Notes under the pieces: model-generated
The model's database searches: none
Told to the model about the DNA's origin: nothing
What the model saw: only the letters and a program-made list of their open reading frames with translations
Assembly (NCBI GenBank): GCA_022870745.1
Contig: CP085323.1
Span: 868,001-932,000, forward strand
Reading direction: 5' to 3'
From: Silvibacterium acidisoli
GTDB taxonomy: Bacteria; Acidobacteriota; Terriglobia; Terriglobales; Acidobacteriaceae
DNA: 64,000 nucleotides
Translations under genes and position numbers: made by a program
In this document: in pieces, positions 5,376 through 36,085 of the stretch
How positions within the stretch are numbered: position 1 is the first letter of the stretch
Layout of the letters: every line of letters starts with the position of its first letter

Positions 5376-5419
5376 AACAGACTAAGGAGCCGAACAGAAC
5401 AAGCTCCAGGAGCCAAGTT

Positions 5420-7560: not shown

Positions 7561-7570
7561 AGAACAGCGC

Positions 7571-18777: not shown

Positions 18778-18793
18778 TGGCTTACTGCGTGCA
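18778..18793 (+). promoter_or_regulatory. Candidate sigma-54 promoter for the exported anchor-D protein
   Basis: TGGCTTACTGCGTGCA has GG and GC 10 bases apart, TGGC at -24 and TGCA at -12. Predicted start is near 18805, about 100 bases before the ATG at 18908. Modest match. Confidence 0.35.
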
Positions 18794-18907
18794 TTGCGTT
18801 TGGCAAAAGTCACACTTAGGGCAATCGACAACTGGCGCGCCGTTATGGCGTGGGAAGCAGATCCCTGTCCTCTTATTGACTTCTTCAGGAAAGGTACGAG
18901 ATCCCCC

Positions 18908-19978: not shown

Positions 19979-19990
19979 AAACAGGCAGCA

Positions 19991-20033
19991 CTCCCGTGGC
20001 GGAGCAATCGCTCGTGATGTACCGCCATGGGAG
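19991..20033. terminator. Hairpin after the anchor-D protein gene
   Basis: CTCCCGTGGCGG pairs with CCGCCATGGGAG (12 bases, one G-U pair) across a 19-base loop. No T-run follows, so it may be an RNA-stability or processing element, not a true terminator. Confidence 0.45.
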
Positions 20034-20098
20034 CCTGACTGTCCGCGCCTCCAAGGTTGACAGCCCCGATCCGCCACTGCTATTCCTTTGGCCTGCCT

Positions 20099-21598
20099 AT
20101 GAAGCGCCATTTGCTTTCCGCCCTGTGGTGCATCTTCCTGTTGCTTCTTTCCGTGCCGGTTCGCGCCCAGGAGCCGATCACGATCGATGCCAATGCGAAG
20201 ACGACGCCGTTTCCTCATTTCTGGGAGCAGATGTTTGGCTCAGGCCGCGCAAACCTTACACTACGCGAAAGCTATCGTGACGACATGCGCGCGGTGAAGC
20301 AAGCGACGAACTTCCAGTACGTACGCTTCCACGGAATACTGCATGACGAGAATGGTGTCTACAACGAGGACGAACATGGCGAACCGGTCTACAACTTCGC
20401 CTACGTTGACCAGGTCTACGACGGCCTGCTGCGCAATGGAGTGCGGCCCTTTGTAGAGATCAGTTTCATGCCGAAGAAGCTGGCCTTCAATCCGGATGCG
20501 CTGCATCCTTTCTGGTACAAGCAGAATGTCTCTCCTCCAAAGAGCATGGAGCGGTGGGATGCGCTGATCGTGCAGTTTGCCCGGCACCTTGTGGAGCGCT
20601 ATGGAATCGACGAGGTGGCTCAATGGTACTTCGAAGTCTGGAATGAGCCGAATATCGACTTCTGGAATGGCATCCCACGCGAGGAAAGCTACTTCGACCT
20701 GTACGCTCATACGGCGCGCGCGCTGAAATCGGTAAGCCCGAGGCTGCGCGTGGGAGGCCCGGCGACGGCAGCATCCGCCTGGGTAGATGAGTTTCTGAAG
20801 TACGACTCGGAGAATCATGTTCCCGTCGATTTCGTATCGAGCCACGGCTACGCAGACGACACAGTTGAGAATCTTTTCGGAACACACGAAGACATCCCCA
20901 TGGACGACCGGGTATGCCGCGCGATTGCGAAGGTGCGCGGACAGATCAGGGCTTCAACGATGCCTCATTTGCCCCTCTTTTGGACGGAGTGGAATGTTCA
21001 AGGCATGAATGAGTCGCGTGACACCTCATTTGTAGGCACAGGGTTAGCGAATACGATTCGTGAATGCGATGGCAAGGTCGACATGATGTCATTCTGGACT
21101 TTTTCCGATGTTTTTGAAGAAGGCGGACCGATCGCGAAGCCATTCGAAGGGCAGTTCGGGTTACGCGCAAAAGGAGGCATCAACAAGCCTAGTTTCTATG
21201 CGTTTGCATTGCTCCATAAGCTTGGCGAAGAACGGCTAGCGAATCCGTCGAAGAATGCGATTGTGACAAGAAACAACGACGGATCACTGGCGATTGCCGT
21301 ATGGAATCTTGTCGATCCGGACCAGCATGGCTCCGCGAAGAGCGTTGAACTGAAGCTTAGCGGTGTAGCGAAAGATGCCAGGGTAACGATTGAACGGGTG
21401 GACGATACCCACGGAAACACACTGGCCGCGTACAAAGCCATAGGAAGCCCCATCGATCCAACCGAGAAGCAAGTGGACGCCATGAACAAGGAAACATCTC
21501 CCGGGACGCCTCAAGAAACCAGGCTGACGAACGGGCAGCTCACTTTGCATCTCGACGTGAATGCGTTGGTGCTGATCCGCGTTTCGAAGCAGGACTGA
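20099..21598 (+). CDS. Exported GH39-like glycosidase (beta-xylosidase family)
   Basis: 499 residues from the ATG at 20099, which begins a signal peptide (MKRHLLSALWCIFLLLLSVP, then VRAQ). A TIM barrel of clan GH-A follows. The acid/base Glu183 is in YFEVWNEPNIDFW and the likely nucleophile Glu297 in LFWTEWNVQG; RVGGPATA and DFVSSHGY are other GH39 hallmarks. A small beta-sandwich closes the protein. GH39 enzymes act on beta-xylosides or, in some cases, uronic-acid polymers and exopolysaccharide. Given the polysaccharide locus nearby, a role in trimming that polymer is possible but not shown. Confidence 0.85.
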   Translation: MKRHLLSALWCIFLLLLSVPVRAQEPITIDANAKTTPFPHFWEQMFGSGRANLTLRESYRDDMRAVKQATNFQYVRFHGILHDENGVYNEDEHGEPVYNFAYVDQVYDGLLRNGVRPFVEISFMPKKLAFNPDALHPFWYKQNVSPPKSMERWDALIVQFARHLVERYGIDEVAQWYFEVWNEPNIDFWNGIPREESYFDLYAHTARALKSVSPRLRVGGPATAASAWVDEFLKYDSENHVPVDFVSSHGYADDTVENLFGTHEDIPMDDRVCRAIAKVRGQIRASTMPHLPLFWTEWNVQGMNESRDTSFVGTGLANTIRECDGKVDMMSFWTFSDVFEEGGPIAKPFEGQFGLRAKGGINKPSFYAFALLHKLGEERLANPSKNAIVTRNNDGSLAIAVWNLVDPDQHGSAKSVELKLSGVAKDARVTIERVDDTHGNTLAAYKAIGSPIDPTEKQVDAMNKETSPGTPQETRLTNGQLTLHLDVNALVLIRVSKQD

Positions 21599-21860
21599 GT
21601 ACACCGCTACTGTATGCCGAGCCGAAGCTTGTCGACGGCTTGTGTGTACTGATGCTGATCCACGAGGATGCGGCCGAATTCACAATGCGCGAACAAAGCG
21701 GGTCATACGGGAGACGATCCGACTCCCTACATGAAGAAACGCAGTCGCAACGCCCATACGCTTGCCGCAGGGAGTGCCTACTTTCAGCCTGGGACTCCAC
21801 TTTCACAACGGAGTATAACGACCGGCATCCCCCTGCGGCGAGTGCATGTATTCGGCACTG

Positions 21861-22289
21861 TTAAACGGAGGCTTCGGCGAGCAGCTTCTCGAGCGTGCCA
21901 AAAAACTTCTGCCAGCCATAACCCGCACCTTTGTAAGCAGCTTCCTGATCAGGACGGAACCCAGACTGTTCCATACGCAAATGGGTGCCACCCTCTTCCG
22001 GATTCAAGGTGAAGAGCACAACACTCTCGAGTCCCATCGAGTTCCATGTGTACGATAGCCGCTTCAACGGTTCGACAACCTGCACCTCGCAATCGATGAT
22101 GCCGTTCCAGTTCGGCATAGGATCGACGCGGAACTGAAAGGCTCGTCCGACTGTGGGTTCAAAATCATTTTTAAGCAGCCACTGCGCAAGCAGGGATTGC
22201 TCGGTGAGCGCGCGCCAGACCTTCTCCGGCGAGTGGCGAAAAACCTTCTCTATAACAACAGTGTGAATGCTTTCTGCGGGGTTGCTCAC
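21861..22289 (-). CDS. SRPBCC/AHSA1-domain protein
   Basis: 142 residues from a GTG at 22289 that shares its first base with the stop of the upstream ArsR gene (TAGTG), so the two are coupled. The sequence is a typical activator-of-Hsp90-homologue-1-like START fold: VFRHSPEKVWRALTEQSLLAQWLL, VEPLKRLSYTW, GTHLRMEQSGF. Pairs of ArsR regulator and AHSA1-domain protein are common in bacteria; the ligand here is unknown. Confidence 0.85.
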   Translation of the reverse strand: MSNPAESIHTVVIEKVFRHSPEKVWRALTEQSLLAQWLLKNDFEPTVGRAFQFRVDPMPNWNGIIDCEVQVVEPLKRLSYTWNSMGLESVVLFTLNPEEGGTHLRMEQSGFRPDQEAAYKGAGYGWQKFFGTLEKLLAEASV

Positions 22290-22612
22290 TATTTCATCCT
22301 TTCCAGAACTGCTTCGAGACGTTCGAATCGCTCCTGCCAGAACGCGCTATACATCCGTAGCCAGTCCGCTACAGGCGCTAGTGCCTCGGGCCGGGCGCGA
22401 TAGTGGTTTTCCCTCCCATCGCGACGATGGCGTACCAATCTGGCCCGCTTGAGCACCGTCAGATGCTTGGAAACCGCGGGCTGAGAGATACCTGCGAAGC
22501 GGGTCAGTGCGTGTACCGTTTGCTCGTCGTGTCTAGTCAACTCTTCGAAGATAGCCCTCCGCGTGGGATCGGAGAGGGCGCGGAAGACGAGATCGGTCGA
22601 CGCAGATCGCAT
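22289..22612 (-). CDS. ArsR-family winged-helix transcriptional regulator
   Basis: 107 residues. It starts with FRALSDPTRRAIFEEL and has the recognition helix region GISQPAVSKHLTVLKRARLV, then DGRENHYRARPE. No cysteine metal site is seen, so this is the non-metal ArsR subtype that travels with AHSA1 proteins. It probably autoregulates the two-gene operon. Confidence 0.88.
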   Translation of the reverse strand: MRSASTDLVFRALSDPTRRAIFEELTRHDEQTVHALTRFAGISQPAVSKHLTVLKRARLVRHRRDGRENHYRARPEALAPVADWLRMYSAFWQERFERLEAVLERMK

Positions 22613-22730
22613 GCATTATTTATAGCCATTTGGTTATGGATTGTCAAGATAGAATTATTGATCTTCAACAGGATATTGATAAAGCAGCGACTGAGAATCA
22701 AACCTTCTCAATCGCCGCTTATCACGCCGT

Positions 22731-23108
22731 TCAGATATTCATTGTGCTGATTTCGACGGTTACTCCGCCGGGCGCATTGCAATAAAAACCATAGGTGGGA
22801 GGGCCTCCGCGTTGCAGCAATGCAGGTGAGGGCGCTTCGTAGCCTGCAGACTCAACAGCCGCGTGACACTCATCCACCATGCTGCGCGAGTCCTGCAGAA
22901 AGCCCACATGAAAGAATCCGGGATACCCGTGCTCACTCGTCATGTGCTTGTCGAACATGAGGGCCAACAGAAAGCCTGCTTGGTCCTGCAGGATCGCGAA
23001 CTTGTCGCCACGCGTTTCAAGTGTATGGAGATTGAAGACGCGTTCAAGAAACGTGCGAAGCGACGGGACATCATAAGTTGTGAGGTTGGCGTGATTGAGG
23101 ATGTGCAT
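22731..23108 (-). CDS. VOC-family (glyoxalase/bleomycin-resistance fold) protein
   Basis: 125 residues from the ATG at 23108, chosen for AAGGAG eight bases upstream; the frame extends to 23168 without family similarity. It begins HILNHANLTTYDVPSLRTFLERVF, contains FFHVGFLQDS in the middle and ends GPPTYGFYCNAPGGVTVEIS. This matches one vicinal-oxygen-chelate module with likely metal ligands His and Glu. The substrate is unknown. Confidence 0.82.
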   Translation of the reverse strand: MHILNHANLTTYDVPSLRTFLERVFNLHTLETRGDKFAILQDQAGFLLALMFDKHMTSEHGYPGFFHVGFLQDSRSMVDECHAAVESAGYEAPSPALLQRGGPPTYGFYCNAPGGVTVEISTMNI

Positions 23109-23168
23109 TCGCGAATCTCCTTGGTTGGAAATGGAGTCGCGTGAGTGATTACTTAAGGGAGAATCCAC

Positions 23169-23302
23169 GCGACACTAGTGCAGTGCGAGCGCGCACTGCA
23201 GCCTGTCGCCGTGGGTCCCTTCCCCGATGTCTCCCGGGGATGACTTGACCGCAGAATTCTCTCTGCGGTGAGCCGGGCTTACCAAGCCGGCTCTGCGTTT
23301 TT
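23169..23302 (+). ncRNA. Candidate structured small RNA with terminal hairpin and T-run
   Basis: Four consecutive hairpins occur within 134 bases. The first (23169-23209) pairs GCGACA with TGTCGC outside and TGCAGTGCG with CGCACTGCA inside, loop AGCG. The second pairs CCCCG (23222-23226) with CGGGG (23235-23239). The third pairs ACCGCAGA (23248-23255) with TCTGCGGT (23262-23269). The fourth pairs GAGCCGG (23270-23276) with CCGGCTC (23287-23293) and is followed by TGCGTTTTT. The T-run favours the plus strand. No plus-strand gene precedes it. On the minus strand it would be the leader of the VOC gene. No known RNA family was recognised. Confidence 0.45.
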
Positions 23303-23480
23303 CGGCAGCTATAGGATGTGGACGGGCGGAGAGTAGTTGCAGTTTTTGCGATTGGGAGCACAGCCTTACGTACGACTGGTTACCGGCGGCGCTACTCTCT
23401 TAACCCATGAGTAACTGGCCACAATGAACCGATGCGGACGATGTCACGTTTAGCGGATTCGCAACGAACAGATATTACAA

Positions 23481-23509
23481 TTGCTTTCGCAGTTCCAGTC
23501 ACTTATAAC
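23481..23509 (+). promoter_or_regulatory. Sigma-70-type promoter of the ubiquitin-like operon
   Basis: TTGCTT at 23481-23486 and TATAAC at 23504-23509 are separated by exactly 17 bases. Predicted start is near 23516, 38 bases before the first gene's ATG at 23554. It is the best sigma-70-like match in this intergenic region. Confidence 0.65.
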
Positions 23510-23553
23510 CACTTCAACTGTTGTTCTTTTCCGTTCTCTGCAGGTGGTTTTTA

Positions 23554-24645
23554 ATGCCCTTGGACAGGGTTGTTGTCAGTTCAGAAGAAATTGAGAAAGT
23601 TGGGCCCGCGCCCGATGTGCCGCCCTCCGCGCAGCCCGTCCTGGCGAAGAAGCTGCCTTCTCCCATTCCTTGGTGGGCACGGTTAGGCCTCGCTCCGACC
23701 GTCCTGGTCCTGCCGCTGCTGTGCGTGCTGACGGTAGTTCTGAGGATTGCCTTCCGCAGCCAGGCACCGCGGGTGAAATACGCGTGGGTTTCATTTTTAT
23801 CTACCCTGCTTGCCATAAGCGGTGTCCTCACTACGGCGGGTACGGTGGTGTTCTTTTCTTTCGTTCCGATTCCGGCGATCGTAAACACCGCCCTGTCGGA
23901 CATGGACGAACGCACCCAGTTCCCTGCGCTGCCCTCTGCAACAGAGCTGAGCGGAGCCGATGTATCCAGCAAGTTGAAGCCGATGGTCATCGTAGTTTCG
24001 CCTGCGGCCAGGATGTGGAACCGGAGCGAAACAACCTCGGGGCTCTTCGGTGCAGGTGTGCTTCTTCACGCGGACAAGGACGGCTATCTCTTTGCCACCG
24101 CCAACCATGTGGCGAGCTATTCGGCCTGGGGTGTTGGCGGAAGCTCCGGACATATCCTCGTGTCCACCGCGGCTGGAGTATGGGCGAAAGCCCAGGTCGT
24201 CGCAACCGCGCCGCAATTGGACATGGCGCTGCTGTGGTTGCCACGGCACTCGGGAACAGGCGAGTTCACGCAACCAGTGTCCACTGCGAACGATGGTGAG
24301 AACGTTTTTGTCATCGGGCATCCAGAGGGTTTGAATTACACCCTCAGTACCGGGATCGTGTCGGGGTTGCGTGACCAGTCGATCCAGATCTCGGCGGCAG
24401 TGAGCCCGGGCAACAGCGGTGGCCCGGTCTATGACAATCATGGCAATCTGCTCGCAATTGTCAGCTCGAAGTTCGATCGCAACCGGGATGCGAATGCGGA
24501 AAATCTCAGCTTCGCCAGCAAAGCTGACGCGCTGCTGCAGGAATCCGATTGGACATTCAGCCACAACGGCCGGCAGTGGCTTGAACATTACATTGCCGCT
24601 GTCGCAAAAAGCAGCAGCTCAGTAGAACCAGAAGCTAAGAAGTAA
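23554..24645 (+). CDS. Membrane-anchored trypsin-like serine protease, first gene of the ubiquitin-like operon
   Basis: 363 residues from the ATG at 23554 (CAGGTGG upstream). A cytoplasmic N-terminal tail is followed by two transmembrane segments (about 44-67 and 77-106). The protease domain (about 145-335) has an S1-family (trypsin/HtrA-type) triad: His185 in FATANHV, Asp223 in LDMALL and Ser288 in SPGNSGGPV. There is no PDZ domain. Two membrane passes after a short tail put the protease on the same side as the N-terminus, probably the cytoplasm, though the topology is a prediction. Its presence at the head of a conjugation operon suggests processing or degradation of modified membrane proteins; this is inference. 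Confidence 0.85.
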   Translation: MPLDRVVVSSEEIEKVGPAPDVPPSAQPVLAKKLPSPIPWWARLGLAPTVLVLPLLCVLTVVLRIAFRSQAPRVKYAWVSFLSTLLAISGVLTTAGTVVFFSFVPIPAIVNTALSDMDERTQFPALPSATELSGADVSSKLKPMVIVVSPAARMWNRSETTSGLFGAGVLLHADKDGYLFATANHVASYSAWGVGGSSGHILVSTAAGVWAKAQVVATAPQLDMALLWLPRHSGTGEFTQPVSTANDGENVFVIGHPEGLNYTLSTGIVSGLRDQSIQISAAVSPGNSGGPVYDNHGNLLAIVSSKFDRNRDANAENLSFASKADALLQESDWTFSHNGRQWLEHYIAAVAKSSSSVEPEAKK

Positions 24646-24664
24646 GGAGTGTCAGGACCGATTC

Positions 24665-24934
24665 ATGGCTTATATCAACGTTACGGTGTACGACTCGACG
24701 GAAAACAAGCGCGTGCCTGCAGAGCTTCCGGATGACGCACCCTGCAGCAAGATCGTCGCGGTGCTTGTTCAGAAACTTCAGCTGCCTGTGAATGGGCCGG
24801 ACGGCGCGCCGCTGAGCTACAAGTTCCATCACAAGAACTCGGGCCGCCAGATCCAAGACTCGCAGACGCTGGCCGATGCGGCAGTCCGCGATGGTGACAT
24901 CCTCCGCCTGCAACCAGAAATCACTGCCGGATAA
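24665..24934 (+). CDS. Ubiquitin-like beta-grasp protein (YukD-like) ending in glycine
   Basis: 89 residues. It starts AYINVTVYDSTENKRVPAEL, has a helix DAPCSKIVAVLVQKLQL, then LSYKFHHKNSGRQIQDSQTL and DGDILRLQPEITAG, the ubiquitin/YukD beta-grasp layout. The protein ends Ala-Gly with nothing beyond, so a C-terminal glycine is available for adenylation without prior trimming. Lys29 and Lys36 could form chains. It is directly upstream of an E1-like gene (4 bases between). YukD-like proteins also occur in type VII secretion, but no secretion genes are here. This is the proposed modifier of the system. Confidence 0.8.
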   Translation: MAYINVTVYDSTENKRVPAELPDDAPCSKIVAVLVQKLQLPVNGPDGAPLSYKFHHKNSGRQIQDSQTLADAAVRDGDILRLQPEITAG

Positions 24935-24938
24935 ATCG

Positions 24939-26150
24939 ATGCCGCCCGAAGCGATTAGAGTGCATGCCCCGGCGCAGGACGACAGGTACAGCCGGTTGCG
25001 GCTGATTCCCTGGTGGGATCAGGAGAAGATCCGCGCGACCCGGGTGGTGGTAATCGGCGCGGGCGCGCTGGGCAACGAGATACTGAAAAACCTGGCTCTG
25101 CTGGGATTTCTTCAGGTTGTCGTTGTCGATCTCGACCACATTGAAACATCGAACCTCTCGCGCGCCGTGCTGTTTCGGGCGAGCGATGTGGGGCGCTCCA
25201 AGGCCGAGGTAGTCGCGGATGCATACAGGGATATCCTGCCGGAAGCTACGGTTCAGCCTCTTACCGCGAATGTGATGCAGGACTGCGGACTGGGCCTGTT
25301 TGCATGGGCCGATGTCATTCTCGCGGGTCTAGACAATCGCGAGGCGCGGCTCTGGATCAACCGTTCGGCGTGGAAGACAAACCGTCCCTGGATCGACGGC
25401 GCGATCGAGGGCATCAACGGGGTGGTAAGAGCCTTCGTCGCAGGCCAGGCGCCCTGCTATGAATGCACGCTCGGCGAGACCGACTGGGCAATTCTCAGCA
25501 GGCGCATGTCATGCAACCTGCTGCTTCACGAGGCGCAGACGGAAGGCCGTGTCCCGACCACGCCCACGATCTCTTCGATCATCGCCGGCGTGCAAGTACA
25601 GGAGGCAGTGAAGCTGCTGCATGATTTGCCGGCGCTTGTAAGCAAAGGCTACGTCTTTGAAGGATTGCACCATACCTCCTACACGGTTGAGTACACGGAA
25701 AATCCGGAGTGCATGAGCCACTACGTTCTCGACAGGATCCTGGACATCGACCAGCCTTCGAGTGCTCTTACTTTGCAGGATCTGGCGCGGCGAGCCAGCA
25801 GCTATCTGGGCGTGGAAGACGTCGCGATCGAGTTCAGCCGCGATGTGATTCACAAGCTGGTCTGTCCGAAGTGCGGGCGGGAGGAGATCTGCTTCGTGGC
25901 CGTGGGAGCGATTCGCTACGATCAGGGGCCGTGCCCGGATGACGGCCAGATGCGCGTGGTGCAAACGCTCTCCGGTTACCGGGGAGAAGCGGAGCTGGCT
26001 GATCGCACGCTCGATCAGCTGGGCCTGCCACTATTCGATATCTTCACGGCGCGGTCGATGGAAACCGAAATTTCCTATCGCATTGCAGGCGACGCGACCA
26101 AGGTTCTTGGTGTACTTGCATCTCCGGCGATCAAGGAGGTCGAAGCATGA
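24939..26150 (+). CDS. E1-like activating enzyme (ThiF/MoeB/UBA family)
   Basis: 403 residues from the ATG at 24939. The adenylation domain has the nucleotide loop VVVIGAGALGNEILKNLALLG, then VVDLDHIETSNLSRAVLF with the Asp and Asn-x-x-Arg residues, and LAGLDNREARLWIN. Cys173/Cys176 (CYEC) and Cys309/Cys312 (CPKC) could form a zinc site as in MoeB. Cys192 in RRMSCNLL lies in the crossover-loop position, just before VPTTPTISSIIAGVQVQEAV, and is the best candidate for the thioester cysteine. About 140 further residues, including TLDQLGLPLFDIF, may act as an E2-presenting domain. Its stop overlaps the JAB gene (ATGA). Confidence 0.88.
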   Translation: MPPEAIRVHAPAQDDRYSRLRLIPWWDQEKIRATRVVVIGAGALGNEILKNLALLGFLQVVVVDLDHIETSNLSRAVLFRASDVGRSKAEVVADAYRDILPEATVQPLTANVMQDCGLGLFAWADVILAGLDNREARLWINRSAWKTNRPWIDGAIEGINGVVRAFVAGQAPCYECTLGETDWAILSRRMSCNLLLHEAQTEGRVPTTPTISSIIAGVQVQEAVKLLHDLPALVSKGYVFEGLHHTSYTVEYTENPECMSHYVLDRILDIDQPSSALTLQDLARRASSYLGVEDVAIEFSRDVIHKLVCPKCGREEICFVAVGAIRYDQGPCPDDGQMRVVQTLSGYRGEAELADRTLDQLGLPLFDIFTARSMETEISYRIAGDATKVLGVLASPAIKEVEA

Positions 26151-26941
26151 CGGCCACTCCGCGCTTCCAGGTCGATAACGAAGTTACCCGCTGCATTCGC
26201 CAGCACGCGCGAACGCACATGACCACCGAAGTTTGTGGCGTACTGATTGGAGAGCTTCGGGGCGGCGTTGTGGAGATACAGGCTTCGATCGAAGCTTCGA
26301 ACGCAGCCCAGGCCGGAACCCACGTTACATTCACGCAGGACGCATGGGAGACGATCTACAAGGTCAAGGACGAGTCGTACCCGAACGAGCGGATCGTCGG
26401 CTGGTATCACTCCCATCCAGGATTCGGTGTCTTCCTCTCGGAGCATGACACCTTCATTCACCGCAATTTCTTCTCTTCCCCCGACCAGGTTGCGTGGGTC
26501 TACGATCCGCACACCGACGAAGAAGGATGCTTTGGATGGGTCGACGGAGAGATTCATCGCATTCCTTTCTTTTCCGTTGTCGATAACGCGGGCGACGGCG
26601 TGGAGCGCACTCCAAAGGAGACGCCCGCAGCCCAGGTCAAAGCGAACGAAGAGCCTCCGCCTGCACCGCAGCAGCCTTTACGCAGAGAAGCCGGTTCGGC
26701 ATGGATGCGCTGGGCAGGCATGGCGATGATCTACCTATCGCTCGTCGCGCTCGGATTTGCAGTCTCTTACTTCCTGTTTCCTCGCATCCTGCTGGTGACC
26801 TTCGACCCAGTCACAAAGGAGCCGCTCATAATCACCCGGGACGGAGAGCGGATCGAACTGCGGCGGCCGGACGGCTCCGGAGCTTACACTTTGCCGCAGC
26901 CAGTGCAGAAGCCTGATTCGCCATCCGGAGGTCAAAAGTGA
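26147..26941 (+). CDS. JAMM/JAB metallo-isopeptidase with C-terminal membrane anchor
   Basis: 264 residues. The complete JAMM zinc motif is visible: Glu28 (MTTEVCGVLIG) and His88-x-His90-x7-Ser98-x2-Asp101 in GWYHSHPGFGVFLSEHD. This is the signature of deubiquitinase-type Mov34/MPN/PAD-1 peptidases, so it could remove or process the ubiquitin-like protein. After the domain (to about 145) comes a Pro/Glu-rich linker and one transmembrane helix at about 189-213, then a 50-residue tail. The peptidase is therefore tethered to the membrane, probably on the cytoplasmic face. Start and stop overlap both neighbours (ATGA and GTGA). Confidence 0.9.
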   Translation: MTATPRFQVDNEVTRCIRQHARTHMTTEVCGVLIGELRGGVVEIQASIEASNAAQAGTHVTFTQDAWETIYKVKDESYPNERIVGWYHSHPGFGVFLSEHDTFIHRNFFSSPDQVAWVYDPHTDEEGCFGWVDGEIHRIPFFSVVDNAGDGVERTPKETPAAQVKANEEPPPAPQQPLRREAGSAWMRWAGMAMIYLSLVALGFAVSYFLFPRILLVTFDPVTKEPLIITRDGERIELRRPDGSGAYTLPQPVQKPDSPSGGQK

Positions 26942-27993
26942 ACGAGAACCAGCCGCTCCGTGTAACGCTTGAAGAACTGACGAAGGACGAGAAGCCTGTC
27001 GCTGTTACCAGCGCGAGCCTGCACTCTGCCGCGGCAACACCCGGCACTACGGTTTACGGCAACATCAATGCCGAGCCCGATGCCCCGGCACTGGCAGAGC
27101 AGAAGGCCAGCATCCTACTGCAGGCATGGTTCTACCTTGGAGCGGCAGGCCTGGTGGGGGCGCTGCTCGGATGGGGAATCGCGGAGCCGGCCTTCGTAGA
27201 CGGGCCAGGGCACCGCTGGGGCAATGCCGTGATGGTGCCGTTGATGGTCGCGATGATGTGCGTCGGTTTCGCGGTCGTCGAGAGTATCGTCGAACGCTCG
27301 GCGAGGAAGGCGCTCATTCGGGCCGGGCTCGCGCTTCCGCTGGGCATCGTTTTAGGGTTCGTCTTCAGCGGTCTTGCCAACATCTTCTATTCGATCGGAT
27401 TGGCGTTCTGCCGCGGAGCCGGGGTGCAGTCTTATCACAATCCAGCGGTCTGGATCGCACGCGGCATCGCGTGGATGGTCCTGGGCGCTGCGGGTGGTGT
27501 GGTCTACGGAATCATCGGGCAATCCATGAAGAAGACTGGATATGGAGCGCTCGGCGGAGTCATTGGAGCAGCGGTCGGCGGTACGATCTTCGACCCCATC
27601 TCGTTCGTCACGCACGGTGGCGCAACCAGCCGGGCGATCGGCTTCGGATTGCTCGGTATCGTAACAGGCGTTGCGATCGGGCTGGTGGAAAGTGCACTCA
27701 AGGACAGGTGGCTTTATGTCACATCCGGACCGCTCGCAGGAAAGCAATTCATCCTCTACAAGCCGCAGACGGTGGTGGGCAGTTCGCAGAACTGCGATAT
27801 TTACCTCTTCAAAGATCCCGATATTCTGCCTCAGCACGCAGTGCTGGAACTTAAGGGATCAAAACTGCACCTGACTGCGCATGGAAGTGTATATGTCGCC
27901 GGACAACCTGTTCGCGGCATGCGGGTTCTTGACAGCGGAAACATCGTTCAACTGGGCCGCTATGGCTTCCGCTACCAGGAGAGAAATCGCTAA
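26938..27993 (+). CDS. Polytopic membrane protein with C-terminal FHA domain
   Basis: 351 residues from a GTG at 26938 overlapping the JAB stop. A 55-residue soluble start is followed by six or so glycine-rich transmembrane segments (LLQAWFYLGAAGLVGALLGW, MVPLMVAMMCVGFAVVES, ALPLGIVLGFVFSGLA and others to about 258). The C-terminal about 90 residues are FHA-like: ILYKPQTVVGSSQNCDIYLF, DILPQHAVLEL, VYVAGQPVRGMRVLDSGNIVQLG. FHA domains bind phosphothreonine, so this could recruit phosphorylated clients or be controlled by a Ser/Thr kinase encoded elsewhere. Its role in the conjugation operon is inferred from position. Confidence 0.8.
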   Translation: MNENQPLRVTLEELTKDEKPVAVTSASLHSAAATPGTTVYGNINAEPDAPALAEQKASILLQAWFYLGAAGLVGALLGWGIAEPAFVDGPGHRWGNAVMVPLMVAMMCVGFAVVESIVERSARKALIRAGLALPLGIVLGFVFSGLANIFYSIGLAFCRGAGVQSYHNPAVWIARGIAWMVLGAAGGVVYGIIGQSMKKTGYGALGGVIGAAVGGTIFDPISFVTHGGATSRAIGFGLLGIVTGVAIGLVESALKDRWLYVTSGPLAGKQFILYKPQTVVGSSQNCDIYLFKDPDILPQHAVLELKGSKLHLTAHGSVYVAGQPVRGMRVLDSGNIVQLGRYGFRYQERNR

Positions 27994-28631
27994 TGAGCGG
28001 CTCCTGCCCCTATTGCCGTAGCCCGTTCGAAGACGGCGAGGAGATCGTCTCCTGCCCGGGGTGTGCGACGGATCACCACACCGACTGTTTCCAGGAGAAT
28101 GGCGGGTGCACTGTCTTTGGCTGCTCCGCTGCTCCGGCAGACGAGCCGAAGGTCAGCATCTCGAATTATGACCTGGCAACGGGAGGCGTGGGCATTCAGC
28201 CAGCGGCGCCCGCATCCTCTTTCCTGAATCTCTCGGCGCCGGAACCGCCTGCGTCTGTGCCGCAAATTCCCGCGAGGACATCGACTCCGCCCCCACCACG
28301 GCCTGCGGGTTCGACTCCGCCGCCGCCACGCGTTCAGACAAGCCACACACCGGTGATGACCTATCCGACGTTTGGAGGATACGGAGATCCGGCCCCCGTT
28401 GTGATCGACACTTACACCCCGAGAAAGAGCCGCGTGGCCTACGTGCTGCTGGCCGTCTTTCTGGGCGCCTTCGGCGGACACAATTTCTACGCCGGGTACG
28501 TCAAAAAAGCTGTCATACAGCTCTGCATCACGGTCTTCACCTGCTTCACTGGCGCGATCGTCAGCTGGATATGGGCTATCGTTGAGGCCTGCATGGTAGA
28601 CCGCGATGACGATGGCGTCGCATTTGTGTAA
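27993..28631 (+). CDS. RING-like zinc-finger protein with TM2 membrane domain, possible E3
   Basis: 212 residues; the start overlaps the FHA gene stop (TAATG). The N-terminus has a RING-type cross-brace ligand set: Cys5, Cys8, Cys21, Cys24, His29 (or His28), Cys32, Cys39 and Cys44 (CPYC, CPGC, HHTDC, C-x4-C). A Pro-rich linker of about 80 residues follows. The C-terminal TM2 domain (about 145-205) has RKSRVAYVLLAVFLGAFGGHNFYAG and two helices. With E1 and E2 genes in the same operon, a membrane-bound E3 ligase or E2 adaptor is the natural guess. Prokaryotic RINGs are not always ligases. Confidence 0.82.
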   Translation: MSGSCPYCRSPFEDGEEIVSCPGCATDHHTDCFQENGGCTVFGCSAAPADEPKVSISNYDLATGGVGIQPAAPASSFLNLSAPEPPASVPQIPARTSTPPPPRPAGSTPPPPRVQTSHTPVMTYPTFGGYGDPAPVVIDTYTPRKSRVAYVLLAVFLGAFGGHNFYAGYVKKAVIQLCITVFTCFTGAIVSWIWAIVEACMVDRDDDGVAFV

Positions 28632-28662
28632 CTCTACTTTGACTTAGCACTGGAGGACATAC

Positions 28663-29310
28663 ATGAACTACTTCATCACGCGCGATGGTCAGCAGTATGG
28701 ACCCTACACGCTATCGGACCTGCAAAGATACGTCGCCTCGGGAGAGATCCTGTTGACCGACCTCGCCTTCAGTGAGGGAATGGCAGAACCTCTGCCGGTC
28801 TCCCAGATCATCGGCACCATACCTGTTCCGCAGCCGGTCTACCAGGTGAGCGCGATGAACACCGATTCGCTCTATCCCGATCCGCCAAACCTGCACTGGG
28901 GTCTGGTTCTTCTGTTCGATATTCTGAGCTGCGGTCTTTTCCAGATCGCGTGGGACCTGGTGCAGTCTTCATGGATGAAAAAGGTCGCTCCACAGAGTAA
29001 GGCTTTCTATTACTACTGCGCCTGCGCCGGTTGCGGCGTGTTGATTTTCTTTGTCAGCTTTTTCCAGGCTCAGCATCACCACCACAGCCCGCTGCTCGGA
29101 TTGCTACAGATCGCCGACTTCATCCTCGTGCTGATTGGCAGGTTCAGCCTGAAGGCTTCACTCGAACAGCACTTCAACACCGTTGAGCCCATGGCCCTTC
29201 AACTGAGCGGTGTGATGACATTCTTCTTCGGCGGCATCTACTTTCAGTACCACCTGAACGACATCGTGCGCCGCAAGAACTTCGATCGCATGACTCGGGC
29301 AGCTGTATGA
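28663..29310 (+). CDS. GYF_2-domain membrane protein
   Basis: 215 residues. Residues 1-50 (MNYFITRDGQQYGPYTLSDL, then VASGEILLTDLAFSEGM) form a GYF_2 domain, a fold that binds proline-rich peptides. Four hydrophobic segments follow, with a His-rich loop (QAQHHHHSP). The Pro-rich linker of the RING-TM2 protein encoded just upstream is an obvious possible partner; this is inference. Its stop overlaps the DUF2752 start (ATGA). Confidence 0.78.
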   Translation: MNYFITRDGQQYGPYTLSDLQRYVASGEILLTDLAFSEGMAEPLPVSQIIGTIPVPQPVYQVSAMNTDSLYPDPPNLHWGLVLLFDILSCGLFQIAWDLVQSSWMKKVAPQSKAFYYYCACAGCGVLIFFVSFFQAQHHHHSPLLGLLQIADFILVLIGRFSLKASLEQHFNTVEPMALQLSGVMTFFFGGIYFQYHLNDIVRRKNFDRMTRAAV

Positions 29311-29693
29311 GATACGCAACGCGCTGCGCGGTCGCAAACCTGCTCGCGCTCGCGACAGTAGTTTGCGCCTTTCTGCTGCGCCGTTTTCCGCCGGAGACGA
29401 CGCAGTTCTATCCGCGCTGTCCAGTCTATGTCTGGCTCCATCTCTATTGCCCAGGCTGCGGTGGAACACGCGCCGCAGCAGCACTTCTACACGGCAGGTT
29501 CATGGAGGCGATCCATTGGAACATCGCCTTCGTCATGCTGTCGCCGCTTGTTCTGCTGTTCCTGGCGCTCTGCTACTGGCGCGCCGTGCAACGGAAAGAC
29601 TTTGTGTGGCCAGCGGTCCCTGAATCACTTTTGAAGACGATTCTTGTGCTGTCAGCGGTATTCTTTATTGCCAGAAACATCCCAGCTCACTGA
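29307..29693 (+). CDS. DUF2752 membrane protein
   Basis: 128 residues with three hydrophobic helices. The DUF2752 core is YVWLHLYCPGCGGTRAAAALLHGRFMEAIHWN, read as CPGCGGTR followed by a small helix and HWN. The function of DUF2752 is unknown; the Cys pair could bind metal or be redox-active. It is coupled to the GYF_2 gene. Confidence 0.82.
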   Translation: MRYATRCAVANLLALATVVCAFLLRRFPPETTQFYPRCPVYVWLHLYCPGCGGTRAAAALLHGRFMEAIHWNIAFVMLSPLVLLFLALCYWRAVQRKDFVWPAVPESLLKTILVLSAVFFIARNIPAH

Positions 29694-29724
29694 ACCATCT
29701 ACCGGCTCCGGAGAAAGACGCAAC

Positions 29725-30237
29725 ATGCCATCGCCTCGCACTCGCAGACTCAAGACTGACCATGAACGCATGGTCAGACGTTTCGCTGACTGGCCGGCCA
29801 TACAGATTACAGCCACGGCGGGCATGCCTCCGGAACTCTATCGCTTTACCTACAACCTGAAGGGGCTATACGTGAATGCGACTGGTGACATTCTCGAACG
29901 CGATTCGCACCTGCTTGAGGTAAACCTCTCGCTGGACTATCCGAGACGGGCACCGCAATGCCGCATGCTGACACCGGTCTTTCATCCGAACTTCGATGAT
30001 GCAACCGTGTGCATCGGCGACTTCTGGGCAGCTTCTGAAGGACTGGACGACCTCGTCGTTCGAATCGGGAGAATGATCGCTTACCAGGAATACAACACGA
30101 GAAGTCCACTCAACGGTCTCGCGGCGAAATGGGCTTCGGAGCATAGCGCGCAATTGCCCATCGACAACCGCATTGTGGCGCCTCCATCGGAAAACCTTTC
30201 CGAGCCCGAGATTTCTACCGGAACCGTATCCGTTTAG
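29725..30237 (+). CDS. E2-like ubiquitin-conjugating enzyme (UBC fold)
   Basis: 170 residues from the ATG at 29725, chosen because GGAGAAAG lies seven bases upstream; an upstream open frame overlaps the DUF2752 gene. The UBC core shows LEVNLSLDYPRRAPQCRMLT, then FHPNFDDATVCIGDFW. His87-Pro88-Asn89 is the HPN motif with the oxyanion-hole Asn, and Cys96 occupies the catalytic-cysteine position seven residues after Asn89, as in eukaryotic E2s. The C-terminal helix is present (SPLNGLAAKWASEH). A 30-residue Pro/Ser/Glu tail follows. It closes the operon and makes the system chemically complete. Confidence 0.87.
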   Translation: MPSPRTRRLKTDHERMVRRFADWPAIQITATAGMPPELYRFTYNLKGLYVNATGDILERDSHLLEVNLSLDYPRRAPQCRMLTPVFHPNFDDATVCIGDFWAASEGLDDLVVRIGRMIAYQEYNTRSPLNGLAAKWASEHSAQLPIDNRIVAPPSENLSEPEISTGTVSV

Positions 30238-30248
30238 CAGCGGGAAAG

Positions 30249-30620
30249 ATTCGAACTCGATTCTAAGCCTTGAAACATTGAAAAATGATCATGGCCTGGA
30301 CTACCCACACAAGTATCGGAGAGATGGAAGGCTTCGAATCATGGGCGTCCTGGCAGAAGCAGGCGGGCCTTTGGGGTTCTCTCACGATGGATCGGGTCGG
30401 ATGCGTCAGCACGGAATCGTGAACCAAAATCCTGAGAGATCTCGAACTAGATAGGTTGGTGACGCGTGCTGTATTTCCGGAGGTGCCGCCAAGTGTCGAG
30501 TACAACACCACGCGTTGGGTATCGCCATGCTGGAACAGACAACATCTGTTTTGGCTCTGGATGGTCGGCGATACCGACAAGTTCGGGAAGGCGCGACGTA
30601 CACACGACCGAGCATCTGCG
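30249..30620 (+). pseudogene. Decayed HxlR-family regulator
   Basis: Stretches in all three plus frames match the intact HxlR protein at 37267-37665 in order: GVLAEAGGPLGFS (compare SVLAEEGSPLRFS), [19 protein letters not shown] (compare LVTREMFPEVPPRVEYTIT), ALGIAMLEQ (compare ELGLGMLEH), LWMV and [11 protein letters not shown] (compare NFERARRKYDER). The frame changes at least three times and stops interrupt it. This explains most of the gap between the E2 gene and the TetR gene. Boundaries are approximate. Confidence 0.75.
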
Positions 30621-30803
30621 ACGACTGGCATCCCATCTGATCAGGTCCAGACAGAAGATTGCGCTCGATTGAATGCTGATTGATTCGATACCGCTTCCGA
30701 GCGAAATCAAGCGACGCGGATTGAGTCGCCAATCCTTCAGGAACTGGGGACTCCGTAGCTACCTTTCGAGACCTAATCACCGTCCCCGGGGGATCTGTCT
30801 CAA

Positions 30804-31391
30804 CTAACTCTTCAACAAAACATTGAATGCGTTATCGAAGAAGAGATCAAGCGGTTTATCGCTTTGCAATGTTTTGGCCCGCACCTGCGCTCCTTCCCAG
30901 CCATCAACCAGGAGAGCGGCAAGATCTTTCGGCTTGGCAATCGTGTGCAATTCCCGGCTATCAATGCCCTCCTGAAGCGTCCTCGCAATGGCGCTCTCCC
31001 AAGCTTCAAAGGCCTGAATCAGAGTCTTTCGGATCTCTGCGTTATGAGCCGCGACCTCCAGACTCATATTACCCAGCAGACAACCAGCGATCGGTCCGCC
31101 TCGAACTCCGTAGGTCGCTATCAGGTCTTTGAAGTATCGACGAAGCTTCTTCATCGGAGAAAGGTTGGAGTGAATGAGCAGCTTCTCCCACCGTTCCTGC
31201 TCACCTGCCGCGTACCTCTTGATCACTTCAAGAATGAACTCATCTTTTGTTGTGAAGTGGTGATAAAAGGAGCCCTTGGGCACCTTCGCCTCCTCCAGAA
31301 CCTGGTTCACCCCCGTAGCCGAATACCCGCCGGAACGAACGATGCCAACTCCAACTTGAATGAGATGTTCTCTTGTAGATTGTTTGCTCAT
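30804..31391 (-). CDS. TetR/AcrR-family repressor, copy 1
   Basis: 195 residues. The N-terminal HTH is GYSATGVNQVLEEAKVPKGSFYHHFTTKDEFILEVI, standard for this group. The C-terminal domain has GGPIAGCLLGNMSLEVAAHN and VDGWEGAQVRAKT, shared with the two other TetR proteins of this block. The conserved Cys in AGCLLGN might sense thiol-reactive compounds, as in NemR-like regulators; this is inference. A near-match to the AGAC-NN-GTCT operator lies 13 bases upstream of its start, suggesting autoregulation. Confidence 0.9.
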   Translation of the reverse strand: MSKQSTREHLIQVGVGIVRSGGYSATGVNQVLEEAKVPKGSFYHHFTTKDEFILEVIKRYAAGEQERWEKLLIHSNLSPMKKLRRYFKDLIATYGVRGGPIAGCLLGNMSLEVAAHNAEIRKTLIQAFEAWESAIARTLQEGIDSRELHTIAKPKDLAALLVDGWEGAQVRAKTLQSDKPLDLFFDNAFNVLLKS

Positions 31392-31403
31392 CTGAGTGCG
31401 GTT

Positions 31404-31413
31404 AGACCGGTGT
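31404..31413. promoter_or_regulatory. TetR-type operator variant upstream of TetR copy 1
   Basis: AGACCGGTGT matches AGAC-NN-GTCT at all fixed positions but one, and on the minus strand reads CCGGTCTAACC, close to the CTGGTCTAATC core of the other sites. Confidence 0.45.
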
Positions 31414-31491
31414 CAACCCATCCTCGTTTTGATCCTGTTCTCGCAGGTATTGCTTAGGTGTACCCATTGAAACCGAGTCCTTGCTCGTGGA

Positions 31492-31524
31492 AGCAACGGG
31501 AGGCGGCCATCGCCTCCCGTTGCT
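31492..31524. terminator. Hairpin downstream of DJ-1 copy 1
   Basis: AGCAACGGGAGGCG pairs perfectly with CGCCTCCCGTTGCT around GCCAT (14-base stem), 33 bases beyond the DJ-1 stop at 31557. There is no clear T-run on the minus strand. Confidence 0.6.
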
Positions 31525-31556
31525 CCCACGCCGCGCTGCGTTAGTGGCGATTTCAT

Positions 31557-32429
31557 TCAGCGCGAGCTACCGTCCAACTTTGCGACGAGTGTGTTGCCGA
31601 ACTCTTCAGCGGACATAGGTTGCTGGCCCGTGATCAGTTCGCGATCTACAACGACATTGGAGTGCCAGTTCGTGAACGTGTCGACGTGGGCGCCCGCTTC
31701 TGCGAGTGCATTGACGGGATAGAACTGCACGTAGCCACCCAGACCCTTCGGGCCTTCAAGAGCTTCCTCTTCACCGGTCGAAAAGATCGTCACGTGATAG
31801 CCGGCGTAGGGCCAATTCTTGGCGAGGGAACTTGCGCTGCCGTCACCTGCAATTAGTGCCTTCTGGAAAGCCACCGAATCGCTCAAGGTCGAAAGCAGAA
31901 CAATAGGACCATGGCAGATAATGCCAGTGGTGCGGCCTGCATTGTGAAAGCTGGTGAGGATCGTACCGAGACTCTTGTCCTGGATCAAATCCACCATCGG
32001 GGCGTGACCGCCGGGAATAAAGAGACCGACGTACCCATCAGTGCCCTCAGAGACCACGGAAGCCAGAGTCTTCGGATGCTTGAGCTGGTCGATGCCCTGC
32101 ACATACTTGAATGCCTCTTCGCGTGCGTTGTCATCGCCACCAAAGAACATCTTGTTATTCGAGTTGGCGTCCATGACGGGTGTATCGCCCTTCGGATTCG
32201 CGATCACCGGCGTATAGCCTGCTTCGACGAGCTTCTTGTAGGGAACTTCAAACTCATTCAGGTAATAGCCCGTCTTGTACTGCTTGCCGTCCTTCAGCGC
32301 CAGTTCACTCGCGCTGGACATGACAACAAGAACCTTACCTTTGGATTGCGACTGCGCTTCGGAGATCGCGGGGATGCCTGTCATAAGGATTGCCAGGGCC
32401 GCCAGAACTGCTTTCTTGAACATGTACAT
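31557..32429 (-). CDS. Exported DJ-1/PfpI-family protein, copy 1
   Basis: 290 residues from the ATG at 32429 (AGAGG upstream), which begins a signal peptide MYMFKKAVLAALAILMTGIP. The DJ-1/PfpI fold follows: KGKVLVVMSSASELALKDG, YYLNEFEVP with the conserved Glu, LFIPGGHAP, and the nucleophile elbow GIICHGPIVLL with Cys-His. The family includes Hsp31-like chaperones, deglycase/glyoxalase enzymes and amidotransferase-like proteins. The export signal is unusual for this family. It shares a promoter-operator arrangement with copies 2 and 3. Confidence 0.87.
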   Translation of the reverse strand: MYMFKKAVLAALAILMTGIPAISEAQSQSKGKVLVVMSSASELALKDGKQYKTGYYLNEFEVPYKKLVEAGYTPVIANPKGDTPVMDANSNNKMFFGGDDNAREEAFKYVQGIDQLKHPKTLASVVSEGTDGYVGLFIPGGHAPMVDLIQDKSLGTILTSFHNAGRTTGIICHGPIVLLSTLSDSVAFQKALIAGDGSASSLAKNWPYAGYHVTIFSTGEEEALEGPKGLGGYVQFYPVNALAEAGAHVDTFTNWHSNVVVDRELITGQQPMSAEEFGNTLVAKLDGSSR

Positions 32430-32481
32430 AACGCCTCTTCTGAATCTGTAGTTAAGCCGATTGCCTGGCTTACAAAAGAAT

Positions 32482-32510
32482 AGATTAGACCAGTCTGTTC
32501 CTTGATTCAA
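32482..32510 (-). promoter_or_regulatory. Promoter with embedded TetR-type operator, DJ-1 copy 1
   Basis: On the minus strand TTGAAT (-35) and TAATCT (-10) are 17 bases apart. The palindromic core CAGACTGGTCT occupies the end of the spacer and overlaps the -10. The same layout occurs at 35859-35887 and 38556-38584. Confidence 0.7.
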
Positions 32511-32810
32511 AAAAAACTATTACTACGGCTCAAAAGGGGGAGAAAAAGTCGGATCATTCTATCCCTACCCTACGAGGAAAACGATGCCGTCGCTCGTCCT
32601 TGAAGTGTAGCGAGTTGCTCACTCATAATGATGCGTTGCCGTTGCGCTTCCTCGATCTGTGCCCTAGCGCGAGCCATGGAGTGGGCATCCAAAACCGGAT
32701 TCGGTCCCACGCGACTCCCGCAATGGCGCGCACATCTCAGGACTTCGCTTCTCTTACCTTTCGCGGTTGGCTCACCGATCCAGGCTGATCGTCCTGTCAT
32801 CCTATCTGGC
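32511..32810. other. Intergenic region between DJ-1 copy 1 and the exported hypothetical protein gene
   Basis: About 300 bases. The minus strand contains a short open frame that would encode a helical, charged peptide (MARARAQIEEAQRQRIIMSE near 32670). It has no ribosome site and no recognisable homology, so it may be a remnant of a larger gene. Nothing else was seen. Confidence 0.3.
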
Positions 32811-33398
32811 TTATGGGCGTCCCATAACGTGGATGTGTGCGTAGGGGGAACCAGCCCACATGATGTAAACACCGGTTGGCTTATGACTCGTTGGTAGCCC
32901 TGTCGTCTTGGGATCGAATGGCCAAAGGATCATCCAGTGAGGCCCAATTTTGATTGCCGGCGAGGTTTTGTCGTTAGGGTCAGTATCGCTTCTCTGGGTC
33001 GCTCCGGCGAGCATGTATTCGATACCAGGAACCGTTGTCGTAGGTCTCGGCTTATGTTCGTCAAAGTCTTTGTTCCACTGCACGGCTACCTTGTCCATAC
33101 ACATCGGGGGCATGCCTACGCGGCTTGGGTCTCCCGGCATGCAGGTGAAATCGTTGGTGCCCTGCCGCAGAACCCGCATACCGCCACGTCCATCGGGTTC
33201 AACGACCGTCGCGTCCTTCGCGACATTGGTGGGACCAGCAGAGAGAGCAAGAGCTATTTTCTGTTGCGCGCTCAGCGTGCTGGGTTTCATCTTCATACCA
33301 GCCATCTCCTGGGCCTGCGCCGCCATGGGAATGCCGGTAGAAGCCAGGAACATGCCAAAGATCAATACGGACGTTGCAATCTTCATCGGAATTCGCAT
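32811..33398 (-). CDS. Exported protein of unknown function
   Basis: 195 residues from the ATG at 33398 (AAGG eight bases upstream), starting a signal peptide (KIATSVLIFGMFLASTGIPM then AAQA). Features include a Met-rich stretch after cleavage (EMAGMKMKP), two Cys within FTCMPGDPSRVGMPPMCMD and a C-terminal WMILWPFDP, ending YIMWAGSPYAHIHVMGRP. I do not recognise a named family. The Met/Cys/His-rich make-up could indicate metal binding. It ends the minus-strand pair with the aldehyde dehydrogenase. Confidence 0.7.
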   Translation of the reverse strand: MRIPMKIATSVLIFGMFLASTGIPMAAQAQEMAGMKMKPSTLSAQQKIALALSAGPTNVAKDATVVEPDGRGGMRVLRQGTNDFTCMPGDPSRVGMPPMCMDKVAVQWNKDFDEHKPRPTTTVPGIEYMLAGATQRSDTDPNDKTSPAIKIGPHWMILWPFDPKTTGLPTSHKPTGVYIMWAGSPYAHIHVMGRP

Positions 33399-33478
33399 AT
33401 CAAGGTCCTTTTCTGTTGAGTGGCGAAAGTAGAAAGAACGCAGCTGCTCCTCACAAGACGAGAGCAGCTGCAGATGCA

Positions 33479-34849: not shown

Positions 34850-34961
34850 GATCTTGTCCTTATGCGTCTCGGCTAAGAGAACGAGGCGGTGTCGGCTCGT
34901 TCAGATGGAGGGATCGCCAGCCTAAAGACTCAAGATCATGGCGGTCCCAACGAAGGAAGCG

Positions 34962-34991
34962 GCGGATAGCCCTTTCGATCTGGCTATCCGC
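34962..34991. terminator. Hairpin downstream of DJ-1 copy 2
   Basis: GCGGATAGCC and GGCTATCCGC pair perfectly across a 10-base loop, 35 bases beyond the stop at 35026. There is a short TTT on the plus side only. Confidence 0.5.
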
Positions 34992-35025
34992 TTTCGCTGC
35001 CACAAGAGTTGCTATGGGAAGCCGA

Positions 35026-35808: not shown

Positions 35809-35858
35809 TTGATTTGCCTCTTTCCTTCGGTTTGCCGTGTCTTCGGCTTTGGTTAGAT

Positions 35859-35887
35859 AGATTAGACCAGTCTGATCAGTGATTCAA
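35859..35887 (-). promoter_or_regulatory. Promoter with embedded TetR-type operator, DJ-1 copy 2
   Basis: Minus strand TTGAAT, 17-base spacer ending CAGACTGGTC, then TAATCT. Essentially the same as at 32482-32510. Confidence 0.7.
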
Positions 35888-35941
35888 AAACAATCTTTGA
35901 CTGGCGACGCATAGCAAGCAAGAAACTGCCTGGCGAGTTAG

Positions 35942-36085
35942 CTACACAACATGAATCAATGTTTTAGCGTTCATGCATTCCTAAAGACCCAAGGAACCAA
36001 GCTCGAGCCGATGACCAGGGTGCTTGATGCCACCGAAAGCTGCCACCTGCTCAGACATGGAGACTTGGTTGAACGCCGTCATGCG
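35942..36085 (-). pseudogene. Remnant of an aldehyde dehydrogenase C-terminus
   Basis: The minus strand encodes VAAFGGIKHPGHRLELGSLG, an in-frame stop, then ECMNAKTLIHVV and a stop. This aligns with the C-terminal signature of SSADH-type enzymes (LPFGGVKRSGYGRELSELG..EFVN). TAFNQVSMSEQ just before it aligns with the preceding AVWINTFASTAPE region. Only about 45 codons are left, with at least one internal stop. Confidence 0.7.

Follow-up and report, generated by a model that had tools for sequence, protein, structure and literature searches.

The window analysed here is a stretch of 64,000 nucleotides from the soil-type bacterium Silvibacterium acidisoli (CP085323.1, positions 868001-932000 of a 5.36-Mb genome assembled as a single contig), and it carries at 23554-30237 a compact operon of nine genes, all on the forward strand. 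In order, these genes encode a trypsin-like protease, a ubiquitin-like modifier (Ubl) of the YukD type, an E1 activating enzyme, a JAB metallopeptidase, an FHA-domain protein, a protein with a RING-type finger and a TM2 domain, a GYF_2 protein, a DUF2752 protein and an E2 conjugating enzyme. The original prediction, made from the letters of the window, had described nine same-strand genes with start/stop overlaps; this was borne out, as all nine products have a Pfam match above the curated cut-off, the intergenic gaps are at most 31 bp, and neighbouring genes overlap by 1-4 bases at four of the eight junctions. A scan for promoters and terminators gave no signal clearly exceeding that of shuffled sequences. 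A simple hydropathy scan found membrane segments in six of the nine products (protease, JAB, FHA, RING/TM2, GYF_2 and DUF2752 proteins), the minimum number that had been predicted, and none in the Ubl, E1 or E2. As detailed below, the operon probably specifies a complete pathway of reversible ubiquitin-like conjugation, located at the cytoplasmic face of the inner membrane.

The modifier gene (24665-24934) encodes 89 residues matching the YukD family (6e-15), and its product is the sole PF08817 match in its own genome. When the Ubl alone was compared with solved ubiquitin chains, the match was weak and covered 25 residues only. Its C-terminal motif is strongly conserved across 54 loci: P84, E85, I86, A88 and G89 are each present in all 54, and T87 in 52, with Ile in the other two. 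The original prediction had proposed a beta-grasp modifier ending in Gly, and the terminal Gly is confirmed. The window protein ends PEITAG exactly at this Gly, as do the modifiers of 25/54 loci with the window included, and the Ubl runs 1-22 residues of varied sequence past it in the remaining 29.

The E1 gene (24939-26150) is best started at ATG 24939, although the open reading frame (ORF) as listed opens earlier, at 24876. Its product belongs to the ThiF family (8e-51) and has an adenylation domain, candidate zinc cysteines, a candidate catalytic C192 and a C-terminal domain. The predicted nucleotide loop, GAGALGNE, was found in 53/57 sequences (gaps in four), and C173, C176 and C192 were found in 55/57 (gaps in two), in keeping with the proposed candidate Cys. 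For folding, we used an alignment of 42 rows, in which two of the 43 sequences listed (a frame joining E1 and JAB, and a partial frame) were omitted and the window protein was added. One frame at L056:685-2706 matches both the E1 and the JAB profiles and may be a natural fusion or an assembly error. The resulting E1 model had a mean predicted local distance difference test score (pLDDT) of 92.6, and Foldseek placed UBA3 of the NEDD8 E1 first, followed by entries for MccB, ThiF, UBA2, MoeB and UBA5. In profile searches, the best chains of UBA7, UBA3 and UBA1 scored approximately 130-143 bits, compared with 93-98 bits for ThiF, MccB and MoeB, so by profile score this E1 resembles eukaryotic E1s more than bacterial cofactor enzymes. 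The C-terminal domain is confidently folded in the model, and the alignment to UBA3 extends over approximately 360-445 columns with a root mean square deviation of 8-13; no UFD family was among the Pfam matches of the E1 at E values up to 1.

The E2 gene lies at the end of the operon (29725-30237, starting at ATG 29725), and its product matches the UQ_con family (4e-8), with HPN at 87-89 and a candidate catalytic Cys96, both of which had been proposed earlier and are conserved in 84/84 sequences. The E2 model, built from 56 rows (nine of the 64 listed sequences omitted, the window protein added), had a pLDDT of 92.3. Each of the 50 Foldseek rows listed is an entry with a ubiquitin-type E2, with Rad6 and Ubc13 at the top, and the best chains in the profile search were UBE2C and UBE2B. 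No match to PF14461 (Prok-E2_B) was found in the own genome, though the control gave none either. Since the two models (pLDDT 92-93) fall within the UBA/ThiF and UBC folds, the objection that these genes might lie outside those folds fails.

The JAB gene (26147-26941; JAB 1e-15) encodes a protein with a complete JAMM motif and a C-terminal membrane segment at residues 189-212. E28 is present in 57/59 sequences and H88, H90, S98 and D101 in 58/59, the remainder being gaps. The closest solved chain is 6fjv (3e-11), the Rpn11 of Caldiarchaeum, followed by eukaryotic RPN11 and CSN5. In the Caldiarchaeum system, pro-ubiquitin carries nine extra C-terminal residues that its Rpn11 cuts off (PMC5654768, PMC6043591). 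Given this precedent and the Ubl tails seen in 29/54 loci, it is natural to infer that the variable tails mark precursors resembling pro-ubiquitin and that the JAB would trim them. The RING gene (27993-28631; Prok-RING_1 3e-11, TM2 2e-13) encodes a candidate E3 in which an N-terminal C4HC3 RING-type finger is followed by a TM2 domain. All eight candidate zinc ligands are present in 32/32 sequences of the close group of loci defined below, and each is found in 70-75 of 76 sequences overall. The near-invariance of the JAB catalytic residues and of these eight ligands agrees with the original assignment of a complete JAMM peptidase and a RING-type zinc finger.

The first gene (23554-24645, starting at ATG 23554) encodes a membrane-anchored, trypsin-like serine protease of HtrA/MarP-like type (Trypsin_2 7e-20) with the triad H185, D223 and S288. 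Each triad residue was present in 23/24 close and 22/22 diverged sequences long enough to use; the residue counts for the protease, FHA, GYF_2 and RING proteins omit short frames. In 17/46 diverged loci, the RING and protease profiles match one shared open frame, and in 11 of the 15 diverged loci examined in detail the RING finger precedes the protease protein in that frame; no single frame matching both profiles was found in the close group. The protease has a positive net charge ahead of its first hydrophobic stretch (23/24 close, 19/22 diverged) and in the loop (24/24 and 20/22), and the charge is not positive after the hydrophobic segment in 22/24 and 16/22. By the charge rules, this pattern together with a cytosolic RING fits a hairpin plus one crossing, which would place the protease domain in the periplasm. 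In the two nearest relatives of the window, another protease of this family lies ahead of the operon (L043, from ~1905, and L044, from ~1864).

The gene at 26938-27993, with a GTG start, encodes a polytopic protein with five hydropathy segments and a C-terminal FHA-like domain (Yop-YscD_cpl 3e-10, FHA 4e-7). In this domain Gly and His are kept in 63/63 sequences. The Arg and Ser that we take to form the phosphothreonine pocket of FHA domains were assigned to the position after G281 and to position 297, respectively. The former is Ser in 51/63 sequences and Arg in 4/63, and Ser is outside the four commonest residues at 297. Because the presumed pocket residues are not conserved, we demoted the FHA domain as a phosphothreonine reader, and a scaffold role appears likelier than phospho-reading. 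The last two membrane genes encode a GYF_2 domain with membrane segments, a candidate adaptor (28663-29310; GYF_2 5e-9), and a DUF2752 protein (29307-29693; DUF2752 1e-15), an optional component with conserved C38, C48 and C51. These three cysteines, G52 and R55 each recur in 35/36 DUF2752 sequences, a pattern that could bind metal. The earlier suggestion that conjugation occurs at the inner membrane gains support from the six membrane products and from the shared RING/protease frames.

To determine whether the nine families travel together, as had been claimed, we searched 396 genomes of the phylum with the E2 and found a relative in 21. The arrangement was present in three of these 21 besides the own genome of the window, with DUF2752 missing from two of the three. 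A scan with the E2 alignment over one genome per species (84,980 species) confirmed 96 relatives. The locus set comprised 80 of them, the window and the three loci from the phylum search, and it was split into a close group of 38, drawn from Acidobacteriota and some Verrucomicrobiota and with an E2 identity of at least 61%, and a diverged group of 46 (E2 42-54% identical; Planctomycetota, Riflebacteria, Verrucomicrobiota, Kiritimatiellota and others). Co-occurrence was counted where at least 6.5 kb lay upstream of the E2, which held for 25/38 close and 25/46 diverged loci. The protease, Ubl, E1, JAB, FHA, RING and E2 were all present in 25/25 close loci, GYF_2 in 24 and DUF2752 in 11, and the gene order of the window, among genes present, was kept in 23/25. 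In the diverged loci, the E2 and RING were found in 25/25, the Ubl, E1, JAB and FHA each in 23/25 and all six together in 22/25; the protease was found in 13/25, DUF2752 in 10/25 and GYF_2, found in the close group only, in 0/25. The claim of joint travel is therefore supported, with the qualification that DUF2752 and GYF_2 are dispensable and that all nine genes occur together in only 11/25 close loci.

Furthermore, for the Ubl, E1, JAB, FHA and E2, pairwise distances were correlated, with r 0.87-0.93 across 46 loci. When 27 close loci were taken alone, r was 0.58-0.79, and 0/999 permutations were as high for each of the ten pairs. The window operon clusters with Acidobacteriota operons, including that of Edaphobacter aggregans, whose strain DSM 19364 (L047) carries every operon gene except DUF2752. 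On the Planctomycetes chromosome CP087563.1, the core operon is present in two diverged copies (L086 and L100), and the same holds for contigs of the isolate NAT22 (L088 and L098). The operon is beyond chance, because its gene order recurs in the close loci and its catalytic residues are conserved; and because much of the gene set recurs in relatives and in other phyla, we regard it as a real cousin of the ubiquitin system.

Among 300 genomes of the family, 31 have an E2 matching the profile at all, and the close type (E at most 2.6e-58) is present in 18, that of the window included. No relative was found in 50,697 phage records and none was confirmed in IMG/VR, while a search of 72,556 plasmids returned one remote match. 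This lies on a mobilizable cyanobacterial plasmid of Crinalium (NC_019754.1, 34587-47039; L131), on which a ThiF-family gene, two small genes, an E2 and a Mov34/MPN gene adjoin a conjugative-transfer gene. When the flanks of the window operon (18001-36000) were compared with those of other loci, there were two weak matches only, 24-31% identical. A scan for defence models covered 90 of the 191 flanking ORFs eligible in the close group (150-900 aa, within 6 kb) and 0/228 in the diverged group. Matches were found to 28 PADLOC families, including IetA, IetS, pAgo, a type I restriction endonuclease and TRIP13, and among the 25 families listed each matches one of the 90 ORFs. In a small control, two of 37 other window ORFs also matched three PADLOC models of RtcR-CARF-AAA regulators (best 3e-100), so there is no clear defence enrichment in the flanks. 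The 25 commonest of 93 Pfam families in the same 90 ORFs are mostly metabolic or regulatory, and integrase and transposase are not among these commonest 25. The flanking context neither shows nor excludes a role in defence. Downstream of the operon, the window contains three paralogues, DJ-1/PfpI-like by our own reading (31557-32510, ~35035-35817 and ~36269-37120), of which the second shares 67% and the third 51% identity with the first. The flanking DJ-1-like gene had no good match across eight other genomes of the genus, with weak matches in one only.

Prokaryotic operons of this general kind have been noted before. The 2011 abstract of Burroughs, Iyer and Aravind reportedly names YukD-like Ubls, E2, RING and the E1 UFD, and a YukD-like Ubl, E1, E2, JAB and RING are the features that such RING/YukD-type operons have in common with the window operon. 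In the latter, we found a Ubl with a C-terminal Gly, an E1 with the expected fold and Cys, a separate E2 with HPN and Cys, a RING and a complete JAMM. A 2014 review describes Caldiarchaeum-related operons in Actinobacteria, Planctomycetes and Acidobacteria as uncharacterised and sporadic, citing Burroughs et al. 2011, and the sporadic presence in Acidobacteria and Planctomycetes is a likeness to the window type (PMC4197634). As this review cites the 2011 operons in Acidobacteria and Planctomycetes, the class is not new and has been known since 2011; the membrane module may be its less-known part. A literature search with few subscription papers within reach found no description of the membrane module and no bacterial test of the class. 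The operon of Caldiarchaeum subterraneum likewise combines ubiquitin, E1, E2, RING and an Rpn11-like JAMM, but it is archaeal, its ubiquitin ends in GG, and the accessible text names no accessory membrane proteins (PMC5654768, PMC6043591). The operon types 6a-6e of Iyer 2006 share combinations of E1, E2, JAB and Ubl with the window operon, but these rows, in the part of the paper available, name no RING or YukD partner, and the E2 of 6d is without the classical His (PMC1779556).

The gene sets of Bil and CBASS (cyclic oligonucleotide-based antiphage signalling system) differ from that of the window operon, as had been expected, and both memberships fail on gene architecture. Bil (BilABCD) also unites a Ubl, E1, E2 and JAB in one operon, but BilA has two Ubl domains and BilD an inactive plus an active adenylation domain (PMC11354881), whereas the window Ubl is single; the four Bil genes include no RING, which the window operon has. 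Neither the Ubl nor the E2 matched a PADLOC model at E values up to 1, and the E1 matched BilD weakly (3e-9). With its single 89-aa Ubl and no Bil-type E2 match, the operon was not assigned to Bil. CBASS type II, through Cap2/Cap3, and Bub use chemistry of the E1/E2/JAB type, Cap2 being a fused E1-E2 that accompanies a CD-NTase. The window E1 and E2 are instead separate genes, and no nucleotidyltransferase family is among the nine products, so CBASS type II was rejected as well.

A second, diverged set of ubiquitin-type genes was noted elsewhere in the same genome. In the region 226001-246000 (L132), a cluster at 3173-16423 includes an E1-like gene, a zinc-finger membrane protein and an E2 at 7511-10105. 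Next to this set, in divergent orientation, are genes for an FHA membrane protein, a vWA protein, TssB and TssC and a VgrG-like gene. The zinc finger was read by eye and has no Pfam match. The same families are also grouped at a locus of another genus (L041). In a title-level literature search, we found no paper titled on ubiquitin-type enzymes beside a cluster of the type VI secretion system (T6SS) type.

Gene content, the folds of the E1 and E2 models, conserved residues, co-inheritance and the variable Ubl tails are the direct basis of the proposed membrane-bound conjugation pathway, and from them we infer its reactions, topology, substrates and purpose. The E1 would adenylate the YukD-type Ubl and take it up as a thioester on C192 before handing it on to E2 Cys96. 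The RING-TM2 protein may act as a membrane-anchored E3 that brings the charged E2 to substrates in or close to the membrane, and the membrane-anchored JAB would both trim tailed Ubl precursors and strip the Ubl from conjugates. The FHA, GYF_2 and DUF2752 proteins may assemble the complex or recruit to it. The trypsin-like protease, predicted to be periplasmic and frame-joined to the RING in many diverged relatives, is a likely output or sensor. The purpose that we favour would be to control the quality of membrane or envelope proteins or to turn them over. The original prediction had put forward membrane-protein quality control or defence with a caution that proved justified, and defence receives no clear support from the flanks examined. 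More tentatively, and on balance doubtfully, the operon could form a bacterial machine resembling endoplasmic reticulum-associated degradation (ERAD), in which cytosolic Ubl tagging and a periplasmic trypsin-like protease are combined in one transmembrane complex that is free of a proteasome. Tagging inside the cell would then control proteolysis outside it, and in many Planctomycetota and Riflebacteria the RING, membrane and protease parts would form a single polypeptide.

Several points weigh against the membrane-bound pathway or against the purpose assigned to it. The Ubl terminates in AG, with one Gly, and not in GG. The loci were located via the E2, and the same loci served for the iterative training of the profiles. 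The window gene order is found in just 11/25 diverged loci, and any protease match in only 23/46, so the protease is not universal. The topology rests on hydropathy and charge rules; these break in 6/22 diverged proteases, which are net positive after the segment, and a chain with a cytosolic RING and a periplasmic protease would have to cross the membrane an odd number of times. None of the eight other genomes of the genus, of which three are at least 90% complete, has the E2, and this patchy distribution (0/8 in the genus, 18/300 in the family) argues against an essential housekeeping role. In addition, the own genome has two proteasome-superfamily matches, which we take to be HslV and an Anbu-like protein rather than a 20S proteasome; a degradative outcome would therefore need another protease.

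The same patchiness, and flanks that differ between loci, would suit immunity against phages or other mobile elements, in which Bil-like Ubl conjugation, or the membrane complex with its protease, would act on the phage or arrest the cell. CBASS employs ubiquitin-like conjugation against phages (PMC10449767) and Bil has been described as an anti-phage pathway (PMC13373217), and a few flanking genes of the close group do match PADLOC defence models. Set against these points are the mostly metabolic families among the 25 commonest of the flanks, without integrase or transposase, the lack of clear PADLOC enrichment over the small control, the Ubl and E2 without a PADLOC match, and the near absence of relatives from phage and plasmid records. 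We therefore consider an immune function unlikely, if worth keeping in mind.

It seems improbable that the YukD-like protein stays unconjugated and partners a secretion apparatus resembling a type VII system (T7SS) or a T6SS, with the E1 and E2 serving it in some other way. The Pfam description traces the name YukD to the WXG100 secretion system, and the second E1/zinc-finger/E2 set of the same genome does lie beside TssB, TssC, a VgrG-like gene and an FHA membrane protein. However, a search of the window and 111 other loci with the TssB and TssC profiles from that cluster, and with none for T7SS components, gave matches only there and at L041, and the invariant Gly terminus of the Ubl and the intact E1, E2 and JAB residues point to conjugation. 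The same Cys-bearing E2, with the RING and JAB, leaves hardly any room for sulfur-carrier chemistry of the ThiS/MoaD type in place of protein tagging: the E1 belongs to the ThiF family, but its profile is nearer to eukaryotic E1s, and no rhodanese match was found among the nine products with Pfam.

To our knowledge, the ubiquitin-like pathways of bacteria that laboratory work has so far resolved are mainly linked to phage defence (Bil, CBASS). Under the favoured reading of a membrane-bound, reversible conjugation pathway, the operon is a compact E1/E2/RING/JAMM set that would place the reaction at the membrane, with a JAB closest to archaeal Rpn11. It makes testable the idea that bacteria may tag membrane proteins and couple this tagging to proteolysis without a proteasome.

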